A stretch of 64,000 nt of DNA from assembly GCA_902580945.1 (NCBI GenBank), contig CACHML010000003.1:1-64000 (forward strand), in the 5' to 3' direction. The position numbers and the translations under genes are program-made. This DNA is from an uncultured Pelagibacteraceae bacterium. Lineage in GTDB: Bacteria > Pseudomonadota > Alphaproteobacteria > Pelagibacterales > Pelagibacteraceae. The notes beneath the pieces were generated by a model. It did not search any database, was not told the DNA's origin, and saw only the letters and a list, made by a program, of their open reading frames with translations. Shown here in pieces: positions 46,301 through 59,191 of this stretch. The first letter of the stretch is position 1. Every line of letters starts with the position of its first letter.

Positions 46301-47267
46301 AAGTTTTGAATTAAATAGTTTTAAAATTAAAGATAAAAAAATACATCTAATTTTTGGAAACAATGAAGGTCTAAAAAATGATATTTTAGATAAAATTTAT
46401 TTAAAGGATTTTTCTGGCGAAATTTTAAAATATGATGAGCAAGAGATTTTAGTTAATAAAGATAGTTTAATATCAAATTTATTCAACAAATCACTTTTCG
46501 AAGATAAAAAAATAATTGTTATTTCACGGGCTACAGAAAAAATATTCAATTTAATAAATGAAATAATGGAAAAAGAATTGTCAGAAGTAAATATTATAAT
46601 AAATTCTTCTAATTTAGAAAAAAAATCAAAATTGAGAAATTTGTTTGAGAAAGAGAAAGAATTAATTTGTACTCCAGTTTATGAGGATGATACAAGGTCT
46701 TTAAATTTTGTTATTCAAAACTTTTTAAAGGAACATAAATTTAACTTATCACAAGAAATAAAAAATATTCTTATTGAAAGATCAAATGGAGATAGAATTA
46801 ATTTAAAAAACGAACTTACTAAGTTGAAAAACTTATCAATTAGCAAGAAAATAATTAGTTCTGAGGATTCTATAAAACTTTCTAATCTTGCTGAAAATTA
46901 TAGTGTATTTGAATTATCTGACAATTATTTGGCTAAAAATTCTAAGAAAGTTTCTAATATACTTAATGAAAACAATTACTCTTCTGAGGACTGTATATTG
47001 ATCATCAGGACGATATTAAGCAAATCTAAAAGACTTTTGAAAATAAGAACTGAAATTGACAATCATCAAAACTTAGAAAAAGCTCTATCAAGCGTTAAAC
47101 CGCCAATATTTTGGAAAGAAAAAGATATTGTAAAAAAACAAGTTCAATCATGGTCGACTGAAGAGGTAAAAAAAATGATATTCAAAATAAATGATTTGGA
47201 AGGTTTAATTAAGAAAAATTCAACAAATTCAATGCTTTTTGTATCTAATTTTATAAGCAACTATTAG
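46290..47267 (+). CDS. holA: DNA polymerase III subunit delta
   Basis: IHLIFGNNEGLKNDI... fold pattern and synteny. Confidence 0.85.
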   Translation: MIVKSFELNSFKIKDKKIHLIFGNNEGLKNDILDKIYLKDFSGEILKYDEQEILVNKDSLISNLFNKSLFEDKKIIVISRATEKIFNLINEIMEKELSEVNIIINSSNLEKKSKLRNLFEKEKELICTPVYEDDTRSLNFVIQNFLKEHKFNLSQEIKNILIERSNGDRINLKNELTKLKNLSISKKIISSEDSIKLSNLAENYSVFELSDNYLAKNSKKVSNILNENNYSSEDCILIIRTILSKSKRLLKIRTEIDNHQNLEKALSSVKPPIFWKEKDIVKKQVQSWSTEEVKKMIFKINDLEGLIKKNSTNSMLFVSNFISNY

Positions 47268-48115
47268 TAATTCTGTTTAATAATCTCTACTAGCCTATCC
47301 AATTGGTCAGCCGCTTTATATTCTAAAATCATAGTACCAGAATTATTCTTTTTGTTTCTAACAAATACCCTCATACCTATTTTATTTGTTAATTCTTCCT
47401 CAATACTTATAATATTTGGATCTTTACCTCTCTTTAAATTAGTAGAACTTGCTTTTATCATTCTAACTAAATTTTCAGCCTGTCTTACGGATAATTTTTT
47501 TGAAATTATCCTTTTTGCTAAAATTAACGCATTATCCAAACCTACTAAAATTTTAGCATGACCCTGGGACAATTTCTCCTCAACTATTAAACCTATTACT
47601 TCATGTGGAAGAGATAAAAGTCTTAAGCAATTAGATATATGTGTTCTACTTTTGCCAATAAATTTTGATACTCTATCCTGATCATAACCAAATTCATCAA
47701 TTAGTCTTTTGTAACCCTCTGCTTCTTCAATTGGATTTAAATCTTTTCTTTGAACATTTTCTACAATAGCAAATTCTAATGATTTAAGATTATCGACATT
47801 TATTAAAATCACAGGTACTTCGTGAAGACCTGCGTATTGTGCTGCCTGCCATCTTCTTTCTCCTGCTATTATTTCATATTTATCTTTATCATCAGAAGAT
47901 GGTCTAGCTATTATTGGTTGTATTATACCTCTCTCTCTTATAGAATTAGTTAATTCCTCTAAACTCACTTCATCAAATTTTTTTCTTGGCTGGTACTTGT
48001 TTCTGATCAATGAACTTATTGATATATTTTTTTTTCCCTCAACTTTTTCACTGTCACCGATTAAGGAAGATAATCCTCTTCCAAGTCCCTTTTTTGATTT
48101 AAACGGATTTATCAT
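47264..48115 (-). CDS. parB: Chromosome partitioning protein ParB
   Basis: GLGRGLSSLIGD, NKYQPRKKFDEVSLEELTNSI, AGERRWQAAQYAGL. Confidence 0.97.
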   Translation of the reverse strand: MINPFKSKKGLGRGLSSLIGDSEKVEGKKNISISSLIRNKYQPRKKFDEVSLEELTNSIRERGIIQPIIARPSSDDKDKYEIIAGERRWQAAQYAGLHEVPVILINVDNLKSLEFAIVENVQRKDLNPIEEAEGYKRLIDEFGYDQDRVSKFIGKSRTHISNCLRLLSLPHEVIGLIVEEKLSQGHAKILVGLDNALILAKRIISKKLSVRQAENLVRMIKASSTNLKRGKDPNIISIEEELTNKIGMRVFVRNKKNNSGTMILEYKAADQLDRLVEIIKQNY

Positions 48116-48912
48116 GCTGCACTCTCCACTTGTTTATCTTGGTTTAAAAATTCTTCAGTAAAATTAAAATATGCTCTACTTCCTGGACATGACCTATCAT
48201 AAATTAGAACTGGGACACCATGTGAGGGTGCTTCTGACAATCTGACATTTCTCGGTACAGCAGTACTGTAAACTTTATCTTTAAAGTAGTTTCTTGCCTC
48301 TGCCTCAACCTCTCCAGATAATTTGTTTCTCTTGTCATACATCGTCAGAAGTATTCCTCTTATGTCTAAAGATGGGTTTAGGTTCGACTTTATCCTCTCA
48401 ATGGTTTTCATGAGTTGTGTGAGGCCCTCTAAAGCAAAAAATTCTGTCTGAAGAGGTACTACGAGAGCATCGGAGGCTACTAATGCCATGATTGTTAGGA
48501 GACTTAAAGATGGTGGGCAGTCAATTATAATATAATCATAGAATGGCTCAGAATTATTTAAAATTGCGGTTAATTCGTCTTTTAATTTAAAGGCTCTTCT
48601 ACTATCACCTGCTGTTTCCACCTCTAGTCCAGACAAATCAACATTTGATGATATCAAATCTAAGTTTTCAAAGCTTGTAGACTGAATTACTTCTGAAATT
48701 TTTTTATTTCCATTCAATACATTGTAAATTGTTTGATCAGAACTTGTTGTGTTTGATAATCCAAGACCTGTAGTAGCATTACCTTGTGGATCAAGATCAA
48801 TTACAAGAATTTTTTTTCCTTTCATTGTTAAACCAGCAGCAAGATTGATGACTGTGGTGGTCTTGCCGACTCCACCTTTTTGATTTATGACCGAAATAGT
48901 TTTTCTATTCAT
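48112..48912 (-). CDS. parA: Chromosome partitioning ATPase ParA
   Basis: SVINQKGGVGKTTTVINLAAGL, DLDPQGNATTGLG. Confidence 0.98.
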   Translation of the reverse strand: MNRKTISVINQKGGVGKTTTVINLAAGLTMKGKKILVIDLDPQGNATTGLGLSNTTSSDQTIYNVLNGNKKISEVIQSTSFENLDLISSNVDLSGLEVETAGDSRRAFKLKDELTAILNNSEPFYDYIIIDCPPSLSLLTIMALVASDALVVPLQTEFFALEGLTQLMKTIERIKSNLNPSLDIRGILLTMYDKRNKLSGEVEAEARNYFKDKVYSTAVPRNVRLSEAPSHGVPVLIYDRSCPGSRAYFNFTEEFLNQDKQVESAA

Positions 48913-49550
48913 ATTTTTTTTTTTAAATTTGAAATTTTTACAACTAGTGACTGTTCACTTGTAAGACTTCTCATTTCCTCTATATCGAATTTCCATTTTA
49001 TAGAAACATCTTTCAAAATTTTTTTTCCACTTTTGCCTAAATACATAACTATGTATTTAAAGTTTTTAAAATTTTTTGTTGCTATATCAAAAATAACTGG
49101 CAAAGGTTTAAATGCTCGACAAATAATTACATCTGTTACTAAATTTTTTTCTTCAAATATATTTTTTTGAAAAATCTTAGCCTCTAATTTAAACCTTTTT
49201 GTCATCTCTTTTATAAAATTGCTCTTGTGATAACTCTTTTCATAAAAAATTAGCTTAAAACCTTGTTTTTTTGGTTTCATCAAAATACCCAAAACTATAC
49301 TAGGTAGCCCTGCACCAGATCCAAGATCAGTGCATACTTTAATATCATTTTTATCAATAAAATCAATAGTTTGTGCACTATCATAAATATGTCTTGAATT
49401 TATTGACTTTTCTGTACTTGAACTTATCAAATTAATTTTCCTATTTGTATTTAAAATCGACTGTGAATAGTCTTCTAGCTCCATTAATGTTTCACGTGAA
49501 ACATTTGGGAGATAAATTTTGTCTTTTTTTATTATTTTCGAATCAATCAA
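48909..49550 (-). CDS. rsmG: 16S rRNA m7G527 methyltransferase
   Basis: [28 protein letters not shown]; synteny mnmG-rsmG-parA. Confidence 0.93.
49488..49503. promoter_or_regulatory. parS centromere site
   Basis: TGTTTCACGTGAAACA, perfect 16-bp palindrome identical to the consensus ParB site, within the rsmG 5' coding region. Confidence 0.95.
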
Positions 49551-52873: not shown

Positions 52874-53739
52874 ATGATAATTTGGTTAACATCATATCCC
52901 AAAAGTGGAAATACCTGGTTGAGATTTTTTGTTATTTCTCTTTTGATGGGAAAAAAAAACAAACCTAAATCTCAATCATTTAAAAGCAATATTAGCTTAT
53001 CCGAACGTTTCTCATTTTGAAAATTTAGTATCAAATTATTTGGATCTTAAAGAAATAGGAAAAAATTGGATTTTATCACAAGATAGAATAAATGCTGATA
53101 AAAATTTAAGATTTTTTAAAACTCATAACATGCTTGGAAAACTAAATAACCACCAATTTACAGACAATAAAAATACACTTGGTGCAATTCATGTTGTTAG
53201 AGATCCAAGGAATATTATTACATCCTTGAAAAATCATTTATCTTTTCCAACTTATAATGAGGCAAAAGAATTTATGTTTAATGAAAAACAGATATTAAGT
53301 TTGTCAGATCAAGAAAAAGAGAGGTACGAGAAGTATAAAACTAAATATCCGCTTCCACAAATAATTGGATCATGGAAAACACATTATTTATCTTGGAAAA
53401 AAATGAATAAGAATTACCTTTTAGTAAAGTATGAAAATCTTATTGAAAATCCAAAACTTGAGTTTACAAAAGTGGCAAAATATATTGGAGATTTAATTAA
53501 ATTAAAATTTGATGATGACCAAATTAATACAGCTATCAAGCTAAGTTCTTTTGAAAAATTAGAGAACTTGGAAAAAAAAACATGGTTTCATAGAAAGCGC
53601 AATGGATATGAATGGAAAAAAAAAGAAATTTTTCTTTTTAGGACCTAAAAATAATTGGGAAGATTTGTTAGATTATGAAATTTCTAATGAGATTAAAGAT
53701 AAATTTAATAATGAAATGAGAGAACTTGGATATCTATGA
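52874..53739 (+). pseudogene. Sulfotransferase, broken by two +1 A frameshifts (52951-52959 and 53616-53624)
   Basis: Frame A MIIWLTSYPKSGNTWLRFFVISLLMGKK (PAPS loop), then HVVRDPRNIITSLKNHL...WKTHYLSW...LLVKYENLIENP...FHRKRNGYEWKKK, then FFFLGPKNNWEDLLDYEISNEIKDKFNNEMRELGYL in a third segment. Confidence 0.85.
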
Positions 53740-55511: not shown

Positions 55512-56504
55512 TTATAAGTTTTTTGTAACTAGATGTTTTAACAATGAAATGTGATCTTCATTATCATTCAAACATGGTACCATTTCAAAATTTTGACCCC
55601 CTGATTTGATAAAACTTTCTTTTCCTTGGATCGATATTTCTTCTAAGGTTTCTACACAATCAGATGAAAATCCAGGGCATATAACCAAAATATTTTTTTT
55701 ACCTTCTTTAGGTAGAATCTCAAAAGTTTTATCTGTGTAAGGTTGCAACCACTCTTGTGGACCAAATCTAGATTGAAAGGTAGTCTTGATTTCAATATCT
55801 GAATATTTTTCTGAAATTAATCTGGTAGTTTTATGACAATAACAATGATAAGGGTCACCTTTATCAAAATATTTTTTTGGAATTCCATGATAAGATGCAA
55901 TTATTAAGTCGGGCTTCCAATTAATTTCACTTATCTTTTTTAAAATACTATTTTTAATCGCCTCAATGTATAATGGTTCAGACTCATAATGAGGTATTAT
56001 TTTAAGATTTGGTTGCCATCTCATTTTCATTAAAGTTCTGTATACTTCATCACAAACTGTTGCTGTTGTTGCAGCAGCATACTGAGGATAAAGTGGGAGT
56101 ATAACTAAATTTTCACAACCTTTTTTTTGAAGATCATGAATTTTACCTTTAATACTAGGATTTCCATACCTCATGGCGAAATCAACGATTAAATCTTCCT
56201 TGCCAATTTGATTAGATAGTTTCTCTGCTTGCCTTTCTGTAAAATATCTTAAAGGAGACATATTTTTATCTTCCATCCATATTTCTTTATAAGCTTTAGC
56301 TGTTTTAGAGGGTCTAAAGGTAAGTATAAATAAGTTAAGTATTACCTGCCAAATTAAAGGATTAACTTCAATTACTCGTCTGTCTGACAAGAATTCTTTT
56401 AAATATTTCCTGATATCTAACCAGCTCGTTGAGTCAGGTGTACCAAGATTAACAACTAATATTCCTGTTTTGCCAAATTTAATTTTTGGATGTTCTGGTG
56501 TCAT
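55512..56504 (-). CDS. hemH: Ferrochelatase
   Basis: GILVVNLGTPDS, LIASYHGIPKKYFDKGDPYHCYC, CPGFSSDCVETLEEI. Confidence 0.97.
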   Translation of the reverse strand: MTPEHPKIKFGKTGILVVNLGTPDSTSWLDIRKYLKEFLSDRRVIEVNPLIWQVILNLFILTFRPSKTAKAYKEIWMEDKNMSPLRYFTERQAEKLSNQIGKEDLIVDFAMRYGNPSIKGKIHDLQKKGCENLVILPLYPQYAAATTATVCDEVYRTLMKMRWQPNLKIIPHYESEPLYIEAIKNSILKKISEINWKPDLIIASYHGIPKKYFDKGDPYHCYCHKTTRLISEKYSDIEIKTTFQSRFGPQEWLQPYTDKTFEILPKEGKKNILVICPGFSSDCVETLEEISIQGKESFIKSGGQNFEMVPCLNDNEDHISLLKHLVTKNL

Positions 56505-57502
56505 TTGAAATTTCTTACAATCTTGATTAGTTCCTCAACCATTTCAATTTTAGTCTCAGGAAGTATTCCGTGACCTAAATTAAAAATGTATGGGTGATCT
56601 TTAAAAATACCAAGATATTTTTCAACTTCTATTTTAAGGGTTTTTTGATCAGTTAATAATATTTTTGGGTCAAGACCACCTTGTATTGGTATTTTGATTT
56701 CATTGAGTATTTTCTTTGGATCAACATCGTAATCAATATTAACAGCGTCAGGTTTAACAATTTCGCAAAAGTTTTTATAATCTTTTATACCCCTTGGAAA
56801 ACAAATAACAGGGACTCCTAGTTTTTTTACATACTCTACAACATTTAAAGTAGGTATATAAATATATTCGGGGATTTTATCTTCTAATAATCCAGCCCAA
56901 CTATCAAAAATTTGAATAACTTGGGCTCCGGCGTCAATTTGATTTTTTATATGAAGTTTTAAAAATTTCTCTATTATTCCTAGTAATCTATTAATTAAAA
57001 AATCGTCTTTAAAAAATTCATCTGATAAACCTTTTTTGGGAGAAGATTTATTAATCATGTAAACTAGTATTGTCCAAGGAGCTCCAACAAATCCAATCAT
57101 ATCCCTATTGCTCATTAAAGAGTCTTTGGACGTCTTTTTGATTGCTTTATAAACTTTATAAACTTTTTCTGTAAAACTTATTTCATCGACATTTTTTATT
57201 ATTTCTAAATCTATATCTCCTAATTTTGGTCCAAAATTTTTTTCAAATTCTACTTTTTGACCAAGGCCATAAGGTAACATTAAAATATCTGAAAATATTA
57301 CAGCTCCATCAAATCCAAACCTTCTTATAGGTTGTAGAGTAATTTCGGACGCCAAATCACTATTCAAGCAAAGCTTTATAAAATCTTGGTTCTCTTTCCT
57401 AATTTCTCTAAACTCTGGAAGATATCTTCCTGCTTGTCTCATTAACCATATAGGATTAGATGAGGTATCTTTATTTTTAATACAGTTAGTTATGAGCCCC
57501 AT
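56501..57502 (-). CDS. hemE: Uroporphyrinogen decarboxylase
   Basis: PIWLMRQAGRYLPEFREIR, FNLGHGILPET. Confidence 0.98.
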   Translation of the reverse strand: MGLITNCIKNKDTSSNPIWLMRQAGRYLPEFREIRKENQDFIKLCLNSDLASEITLQPIRRFGFDGAVIFSDILMLPYGLGQKVEFEKNFGPKLGDIDLEIIKNVDEISFTEKVYKVYKAIKKTSKDSLMSNRDMIGFVGAPWTILVYMINKSSPKKGLSDEFFKDDFLINRLLGIIEKFLKLHIKNQIDAGAQVIQIFDSWAGLLEDKIPEYIYIPTLNVVEYVKKLGVPVICFPRGIKDYKNFCEIVKPDAVNIDYDVDPKKILNEIKIPIQGGLDPKILLTDQKTLKIEVEKYLGIFKDHPYIFNLGHGILPETKIEMVEELIKIVRNFK

Positions 57503-57786
57503 ATAAATAGATATATATTATTTACTTTATTAGTATTATGTATTGTGAATAACGTAAATTAGTCAATTTCCACATTTAATTAACTTTTTATTATCAATTT
57601 TGATATGAAATTAATAAGGTTTTTAAGGAATAAATTAGAGTTTCCAACATTTTTATGTATTTTGTATAACTATAATCACATTTTATAATTCAGTTAATTT
57701 TATTATAAAAAAAACAAACTTCTATGCCCTTAAAGGATAAATCTGCATTTTTCTTATTTTACTTATAGTTTATAAACATTTTATAC
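57503..57786. promoter_or_regulatory. oriC: Candidate chromosomal replication origin (oriC)
   Basis: 284-bp AT-rich divergent gap between hemE(-) and ppsR(+); perfect DnaA-box match TTATTCACA on minus strand at 57544-57552; degenerate boxes at 57566-57574 and 57672-57680; parABS about 8 kb away. Confidence 0.7.
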
Positions 57787-58614
57787 ATGAGAAACTTATA
57801 CCAAATTTATTTAATATCGGATTCTACTGGTGAGACACTAGATAGGATTTTTTTGGCTTTAAAAGCTCAATTTCCTAATTTTGAGTATGAGACTAACCAT
57901 TTTTCCTTCACCCGCACTGAAAACCAAACTTTAAGCATTTTAAAACAAGCTAAGAAAGATCAAAATTCTATTATTTTATATACAATAGTAAATAGTAAAC
58001 TTGCAAAGTATCTTACAGAAAAAGCCTATGAAAGAGAAATACCATGTTTTGGTGTTCTTGGTGACTTAATATTAAATTTCTCAAAAGTGCTTAATCAAAA
58101 AGCCTCTCATCAGCCAAGCGGCCAACACGTTCTTAATGAAGAATATTACGATAGAATTGAAGCTATTCAGTTTACTATGAATCATGATGATGGTAATCAA
58201 ACTGATGATATAGAGAAATCCGATATCATTCTTCTAGGGGTGAGCAGAACAAGCAAAACCCCAACAGCAATTTATCTAGCTAATAGAGGTTTTAAAACTT
58301 CAAATATCCCACTAGTAAATAAAAATTCAATTCCATCAAAGATTAAAGAAAAAAATTTTTCTCCCTGTGTTGTCGGTTTAGTAACCGAAGCTGAGAGACT
58401 ATATGATTTAAGAAAAAATAGATTAAACTCTCTTAAAGAAGATCAGAATAGTGAGTACGTAAATATAGATAAAATTAGGGATGAATTAAATAGCTCTAAA
58501 AAAATATTTAAAGAAAATAATTGGCCCACAATAGATGTAACTAGAAAATCAGTTGAAGAAACAGCAGCATCTGTAATTAAAATTTATGAAATAAAAAATA
58601 AAAAAAATGGCTGA
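57787..58614 (+). CDS. ppsR: PEP synthetase / PPDK regulatory protein (DUF299)
   Basis: YLISDSTGETLDRI, LLGVSRTSKTPTAIYLANRGFKTSNIPLV. Confidence 0.95.
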   Translation: MRNLYQIYLISDSTGETLDRIFLALKAQFPNFEYETNHFSFTRTENQTLSILKQAKKDQNSIILYTIVNSKLAKYLTEKAYEREIPCFGVLGDLILNFSKVLNQKASHQPSGQHVLNEEYYDRIEAIQFTMNHDDGNQTDDIEKSDIILLGVSRTSKTPTAIYLANRGFKTSNIPLVNKNSIPSKIKEKNFSPCVVGLVTEAERLYDLRKNRLNSLKEDQNSEYVNIDKIRDELNSSKKIFKENNWPTIDVTRKSVEETAASVIKIYEIKNKKNG

Positions 58615-59191
58615 CATTATTTTAGCTTCAAAGAGTAAAGTTAGAAAAGAAATATTAGATAATCACAACATTAATTGTAATGTTGAAGCTTCTAATGTTG
58701 ATGAGGATCCAATAAAAGAGAGTCTATTAAAAGAGGGAGCTTCACCTGAAATTATTTCCAAAAATCTTGCAGAACTGAAAGCAAATAAAGTGAGTCAAAA
58801 AATGAATAATACTTTGGTTTTGGGTGCTGATAGTGTGATCGATTTAACTGGGGAACTAATATCTAAACCAGAAAGTAGGGAAGAGGCTTTAAATATTTTA
58901 AAGAAATTAAATGGAAAAAAACATTCTTTGATCAGTTCGGTTTGTATATCTAAAAATGGATCCATGATTTGGAACTATACTGACAAAGCTTATTTGACCA
59001 TGAAGGATTTTTCTGAAAATGAATTAATCACTTATCTAAATAAAATAAGTGATGAAGCTTTGTATGCTTATAATGTCTATCAAATTGAAGGCGAAGGAAG
59101 AGCTTTATTTTCTAAAATTGATGGCGATGAAGACACGATAATGGGCTTACCTATTAAAAAAATTAAGGAATATTTGGAACTACAAAAATGA
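58607..59191 (+). CDS. maf: Maf-like nucleotide pyrophosphatase
   Basis: IILASKSKVRKEIL, VLGADSVIDLTGELISKP, MGLPI. Confidence 0.93.
   Translation: MADIILASKSKVRKEILDNHNINCNVEASNVDEDPIKESLLKEGASPEIISKNLAELKANKVSQKMNNTLVLGADSVIDLTGELISKPESREEALNILKKLNGKKHSLISSVCISKNGSMIWNYTDKAYLTMKDFSENELITYLNKISDEALYAYNVYQIEGEGRALFSKIDGDEDTIMGLPIKKIKEYLELQK

Follow-up and report, generated by a model that had tools for sequence, protein, structure and literature searches.

The closest described counterparts of the locus considered here are alphaproteobacterial chromosomal origins of replication that lie beside hemE. Cori of Caulobacter crescentus occupies an AT-rich gap with DnaA boxes between the divergent genes hemE and COG1806 (DUF299), and the origin predicted from such boxes in Rickettsia prowazekii has the same flanks and is also AT-rich, with a reported size of >400 bp and both CtrA and IHF sites (PMC1914354). 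In this line, the predicted origins of Wolbachia, Ehrlichia and Anaplasma are flanked by hemE and COG1253, and published origins of relatives with 0-1 CtrA sites exist, which indicates that CtrA sites are not required for an origin (PMC1914354). Another point of reference is the basal origin unwinding system (BUS), a DnaA box plus DnaA-trios, whose published pattern calls for three or more triplets, each with a middle A, no further than 16 bp from the box (PMC8287927). Our literature search, of incomplete coverage, found no paper mapping an oriC in SAR11.

The window analysed in this work comprises 64,000 nucleotides (bases 1-64000 of contig 3) of a 1.23-Mb draft genome in 31 contigs, 92% complete, whose nearest public relatives are single-cell genomes of uncultured Pelagibacteraceae (SAR11). 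A preliminary description of this DNA had proposed the 284-bp AT-rich gap between hemE and ppsR as the oriC, and in all likelihood the gap corresponds to a SAR11 chromosomal origin, positioned like Caulobacter Cori (hemE/ppsR type). Since origins of this class were already known in Alphaproteobacteria, the case of Pelagibacteraceae very probably adds one more, an expected and well-supported find. The gap lies exactly between both genes, is the longest intergenic gap of the window in a simple ORF screen, and its AT content of 82% is above the ~71% of the window. The divergent hemE / COG1806 (ppsR) flanks bore out the position advanced for it, beside hemE and the DUF299 gene as in Cori and the proposed Rickettsia origin (PMC1914354). 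Gene directions, leftward for most genes from parB to hemE and rightward from ppsR onwards, were also as first given, with the exception of a small sulfotransferase-like ORF (named by its sequence; 53040-53648, + strand) between mnmE and rho, which runs opposite to its neighbours.

Coordinates of the proposed origin, its elements and neighbouring genes in the window
Feature	Position	Strand	Remarks
Proposed oriC, intergenic region	57503..57786	.	284 bp, 82% AT; length kept; top for DnaA boxes in screens of relatives' intergenic regions
hemE, left flank	56501..57502	-	TIGR01464, above cut-off
ppsR (DUF299/COG1806), right flank	57787..58614	+	PRK05339, above cut-off
maf, right flank in the sister family, which has no ppsR	58607..59191	+	TIGR00172
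AT-rich segment, proposed DUE-like	57503..57527	.	From sequence; TATATATA-type runs at same end in sister family; putative role
Candidate DnaA-trio array TAT TAG TAT TAT	57528..57539	+	3'-NAT-5' read away from box
Main DnaA box TTATTCACA (TGTGAATAA on +)	57544..57552	-	Conserved position; invariant G at 57554
Weak DnaA box ATTTCCACA	57566..57574	+	18/36 intergenic regions with <=1 mismatch to TTWTNCACA vs ~1% in shuffles
Weak DnaA box ATAATCACA	57672..57680	+	20/36 intergenic regions with <=1 mismatch
Weak DnaA-box-like TTATAAACA, ppsR end	57770..57778	+	23/36 intergenic regions with <=1 mismatch
parS TGTTTCACGTGAAACA, palindrome	49488..49503	.	Only perfect site found in genome; inside rsmG reading frame, near parA
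parB	47264..48115	-	TIGR00180
parA-type partition ATPase	48112..48912	-	ParA-family matches under equivalog cut-offs; adjoins parB

Three DnaA boxes had been pointed out in the gap. The perfect TTATTCACA on the minus strand was confirmed in the sequence, and the two weaker boxes to its right are real, each with 2 mismatches to TTATNCACA, and conserved in relatives above chance. The gap holds several conserved boxes, as sought in an origin of the Cori type, with one exact and two more with at most one mismatch to TTATNCACA. A further weak box at the ppsR end was absent from the initial list, and a TTATAAACA-type box also precedes ppsR in G143, a complete genome from a different genus of Pelagibacteraceae, which lacks hemE at this site. 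The chance expectation for one TTATNCACA site in 284 bp is ~0.01; the motif is not enriched in the source genome (49 sites over its 1.23 Mb, where the reversed control has 44), so that a single match in one genome weighs only modestly. Conservation of the boxes among relatives had been suggested as a check, and the main box did hold its position, recurring as an exact match in one 20-bp bin in 43 of 55 full-length loci, with no more than 4 in any other bin over 10 kb on either side of ppsR. In a non-redundant set of 36 intergenic regions less than 80% alike, this position carries an exact TTWTNCACA in 19 and a one-mismatch version in 13 more (32/36 with at most one mismatch, vs ~1% in shuffles), counts that are not independent events because the sequences compared are related. 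Some variation remains: 17 of the 36 have no exact match at the main-box position, box number and the central part differ between species, the source genome has only one exact box in the gap and G143 has none in its intergenic region. DnaA of the relatives carries the DHTT recognition motif.

Near-matches come easily at 82% AT, and together with the lack of genome-wide enrichment of TTATNCACA this could fit a functionless AT-rich spacer with chance box matches, or else a small RNA gene. We give this explanation next to no credit in view of the position-specific conservation just described, and an RNA gene was rejected, with no Rfam match in the window and an RNA stability not beyond that of shuffles (z +0.93). 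The inverted repeat TATCAA-TT-TTGATA, noted earlier as part of the gap, is present at 57592-57605 but was discarded as a conserved origin element, as only 2 of the 36 intergenic regions keep 5-6 of the 6 arm matches.

The gap was also compared with other intergenic regions (150 bp or longer) in a screen covering 57% of a complete congener (G012), 64% of the complete G143 and contig 1 of a genome from the sister family (G037). It ranks first in G012, both for AT content and for DnaA boxes, with 2 exact ones and 4 at up to one mismatch, and first for near-boxes in G037 contig 1. In G143 it is joint first for near-boxes with another region, of 1.6 kb and lower AT content.

A gap between divergent genes must hold both of their promoters, and this one might be no more than the two-way promoter and leader region of hemE and ppsR, in which DnaA would perhaps act as a transcription regulator, with replication starting elsewhere. 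Promoter-like hexamers do occur in it, yet no more than in shuffles (3 vs 4.5). The fate of the gap when its neighbours change speaks against this explanation. None of the 108 genus loci covering both flanking genes departs from a gap length of 261-288 bp. In the sister family, where ppsR found no match in any of the 24 genomes searched (of the same order), hemE faces maf and the gap still measures 265-281 bp in 19 loci. In G143, hemE, hemH and hemJ are missing from the site, and rho faces ppsR over a 353-bp gap. A region of similar size that outlives the loss of either neighbour is not what a mere promoter would predict; moreover, a skew trough and a parS are located here, and a trio-like array with a box in fixed register (see below) is not expected of a promoter, all of which makes the promoter explanation very unlikely. 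The neighbour swaps show that it is the gap itself, and not the flanking genes, that stays. The situation resembles that of Wolbachia, Ehrlichia and Anaplasma, where the hemE side also stays and the other neighbour changes (PMC1914354), with the differences that the replacement gene there is not maf, as it is in the sister family, and that in G143 hemE itself is lost. The sole hemE-like match of G143 shows 30% identity and lies at G143:C1:718115-719032, 0.6 Mb from the proposed origin.

In many other bacteria the oriC lies beside dnaA, and a gap of 286 bp and 85% AT upstream of dnaA in G012 makes this a natural alternative, which would place the origin 63-72 kb to the left. We did not find dnaA in the draft source genome; in a close relative it is 69 kb to the left of ppsR, and the equivalent position here would be beyond the contig end. 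The GC-skew check advised in the preliminary description was made on three relatives, the source genome being split into contigs. The broad trough of G012 (57% of bases covered), at 1.225-1.315 Mb, takes in the gap (1.262 Mb) but not dnaA (1.199 Mb). For G143 (64% covered) the minimum is reached in the bin of 148.7-158.7 kb; the gap of this genome lies at 141.3-141.7 kb and its dnaA at 69 kb. On the 660-kb contig of G037 a trough at 350-460 kb again takes in the gap (423.7 kb), and dnaA is located at 489 kb. A skew minimum, as expected of a bacterial oriC, is consequently seen in all three, its trough containing the gap or lying within ~17 kb of it, and dnaA, 63-72 kb off, is outside each. Skew mostly tracks gene direction and thus resolves only tens of kb, so that its minimum by itself does not give the exact site; at third positions the two arms have similar skew, with no clear difference that would separate replication from transcription effects. 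Even at this resolution, the skew speaks more strongly against the dnaA locus than against that of hemE. No DnaA box, exact or with one mismatch, occurs in the G012 gap upstream of dnaA, and parS adjoins hemE and not dnaA: it lies 8 kb from the gap in the window, and each of five Pelagibacterales genomes searched has one main perfect or one-mismatch parS at 7-20 kb from the corresponding gap. An origin beside dnaA is on these grounds extremely improbable, and the hemE/ppsR gap remains the preferred site.

Regulatory elements known from Cori are less apparent in SAR11. The best match to Caulobacter CtrA has 32-35% identity in five Pelagibacterales genomes, which yielded no CtrA ortholog, as against 84% in two other alphaproteobacteria. 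The absence of ctrA in Pelagibacter has also been published (PMC2877005), and a CtrA control of the Caulobacter type is therefore unlikely. The SAR11 gap hence differs from Cori in its shorter length, in the lack of a detected CtrA ortholog and in having no TTAAN7TTAA site. Among the relatives this motif occurs in 19 of 36 intergenic regions (shuffle mean 7.3, max 15), and it was rejected as a set of CtrA sites since it is absent from the gap of the window and no CtrA was found; the excess may stem from neighbouring TTATTAACA-like weak boxes. The IHF site WATCAANNNNTTR is likewise absent from the gap and at chance level in the relatives (5/36 vs 3.4 in shuffles), and HU/IHF-family proteins are present. 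Neither the CtrA nor the IHF consensus reported for the longer R. prowazekii origin is thus matched in the SAR11 gap. GANTC, the CcrM site, which is methylated in Pelagibacter (PMC9516812), is absent from the gap and under-represented in the relatives, with 3 of 36 intergenic regions vs 9.8 expected from shuffles.

A close-up view of the hemE end of the gap reveals a candidate DnaA-trio array. Four TAN units are followed by a 4-bp spacer, by TGTGAATAA and then by the invariant G. Conservation over the 36 non-redundant intergenic regions reaches 94-100% for the T and 81-97% for the middle A, and 26 of them have a near-box with three or more TAN units next to it, as opposed to a mean of 0.7 and a maximum of 4 in shuffles and to 4 with the reverse complement. 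With four units and so short a spacer, the window has the triplets that define the BUS, and on the strand expected for DnaA-trios, the units reading 3'-(T/G)AT-5' away from the box. The SAR11 array shares with the BUS (PMC8287927, PMC6669920) the box, the short spacer, the period-3 triplets, the conserved middle A and the strand, whereas its units are mostly TAT instead of the consensus TAG (3'-GAT-5'), its 4-bp spacer is not GC-rich, and its role in unwinding is putative. Under a strict TAN-trio test only 2 of 19 loci pass in the sister family. The E. coli origin, with the segment CTTATTAGGATCGCACTGCCCTGTGGATAACAAGG, has its AT-rich side on the same side of the box as SAR11, and 4819 of 5426 E. 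coli genomes contain this segment.

Comparable arrays occur in other alphaproteobacterial genomes, where 61 of 69 ppsR loci have a divergent hemE|ppsR arrangement (25/29, G143 included, and 36/40 in two sets). In the first set, a (T[AGT]G)3+ array was found on the top strand of 15 of 25 gaps and on the bottom strand of none (shuffle mean 1.0). In the second set, with the pattern fixed beforehand, it was found in 12 of 36 and the bottom strand again gave none, with a mean of 1.7 and a maximum of 5 in shuffles, which brings the total to only 27 of 61 hemE-ppsR gaps (sets L184-L211 and L274-L313). Most of the arrays are found 40-130 bp away from hemE, and G-rich sequence and a DnaA box come after them, often with TGTG(G/A). 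Their middle base is variable, with 35 TAG, 36 TTG and 34 TGG units over both sets (C being excluded by the pattern). Position, orientation and a shared TGTGAATAACG suggest that the SAR11 TAN run may descend from this alphaproteobacterial array. Much more tentatively, the hemE-side alphaproteobacterial origins might share an unwinding core made of a (T-N-G)n array, a G-rich spacer and a DnaA box, conserved in the outer bases and not in the middle A, of which SAR11 would keep an AT-drifted TAN form in a compact origin without CtrA control. We consider this less likely than not; if true, the base by which DnaA of this class reads single-stranded trios may not be the one used in Bacillus.

Altogether, the GC-skew troughs, the conservation of the boxes, the persistence of the gap and its length when a flank is lost, the nearby parS and the trio-like array with its conserved triplets, observed at the location initially proposed, support the inference of an oriC. 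DnaA binding, strand opening and initiation would then proceed within the gap as follows. DnaA-ATP would bind the conserved main box, assisted by the weak boxes to its right and at the ppsR end, and would extend leftward from there on one strand over the T-A-N triplets. The AT-rich end would melt as DnaA extends, with the helicase loaded at the melted end, and the new origins would be segregated by ParB on the nearby parS. As a short sequence, the gap is usable for autonomous-replication trials. SAR11 bacteria count among the ocean's most abundant cells, and an origin delimited to 284 bp, its core mapped, would offer a fixed anchor for metagenomic peak-to-trough estimates of their growth.
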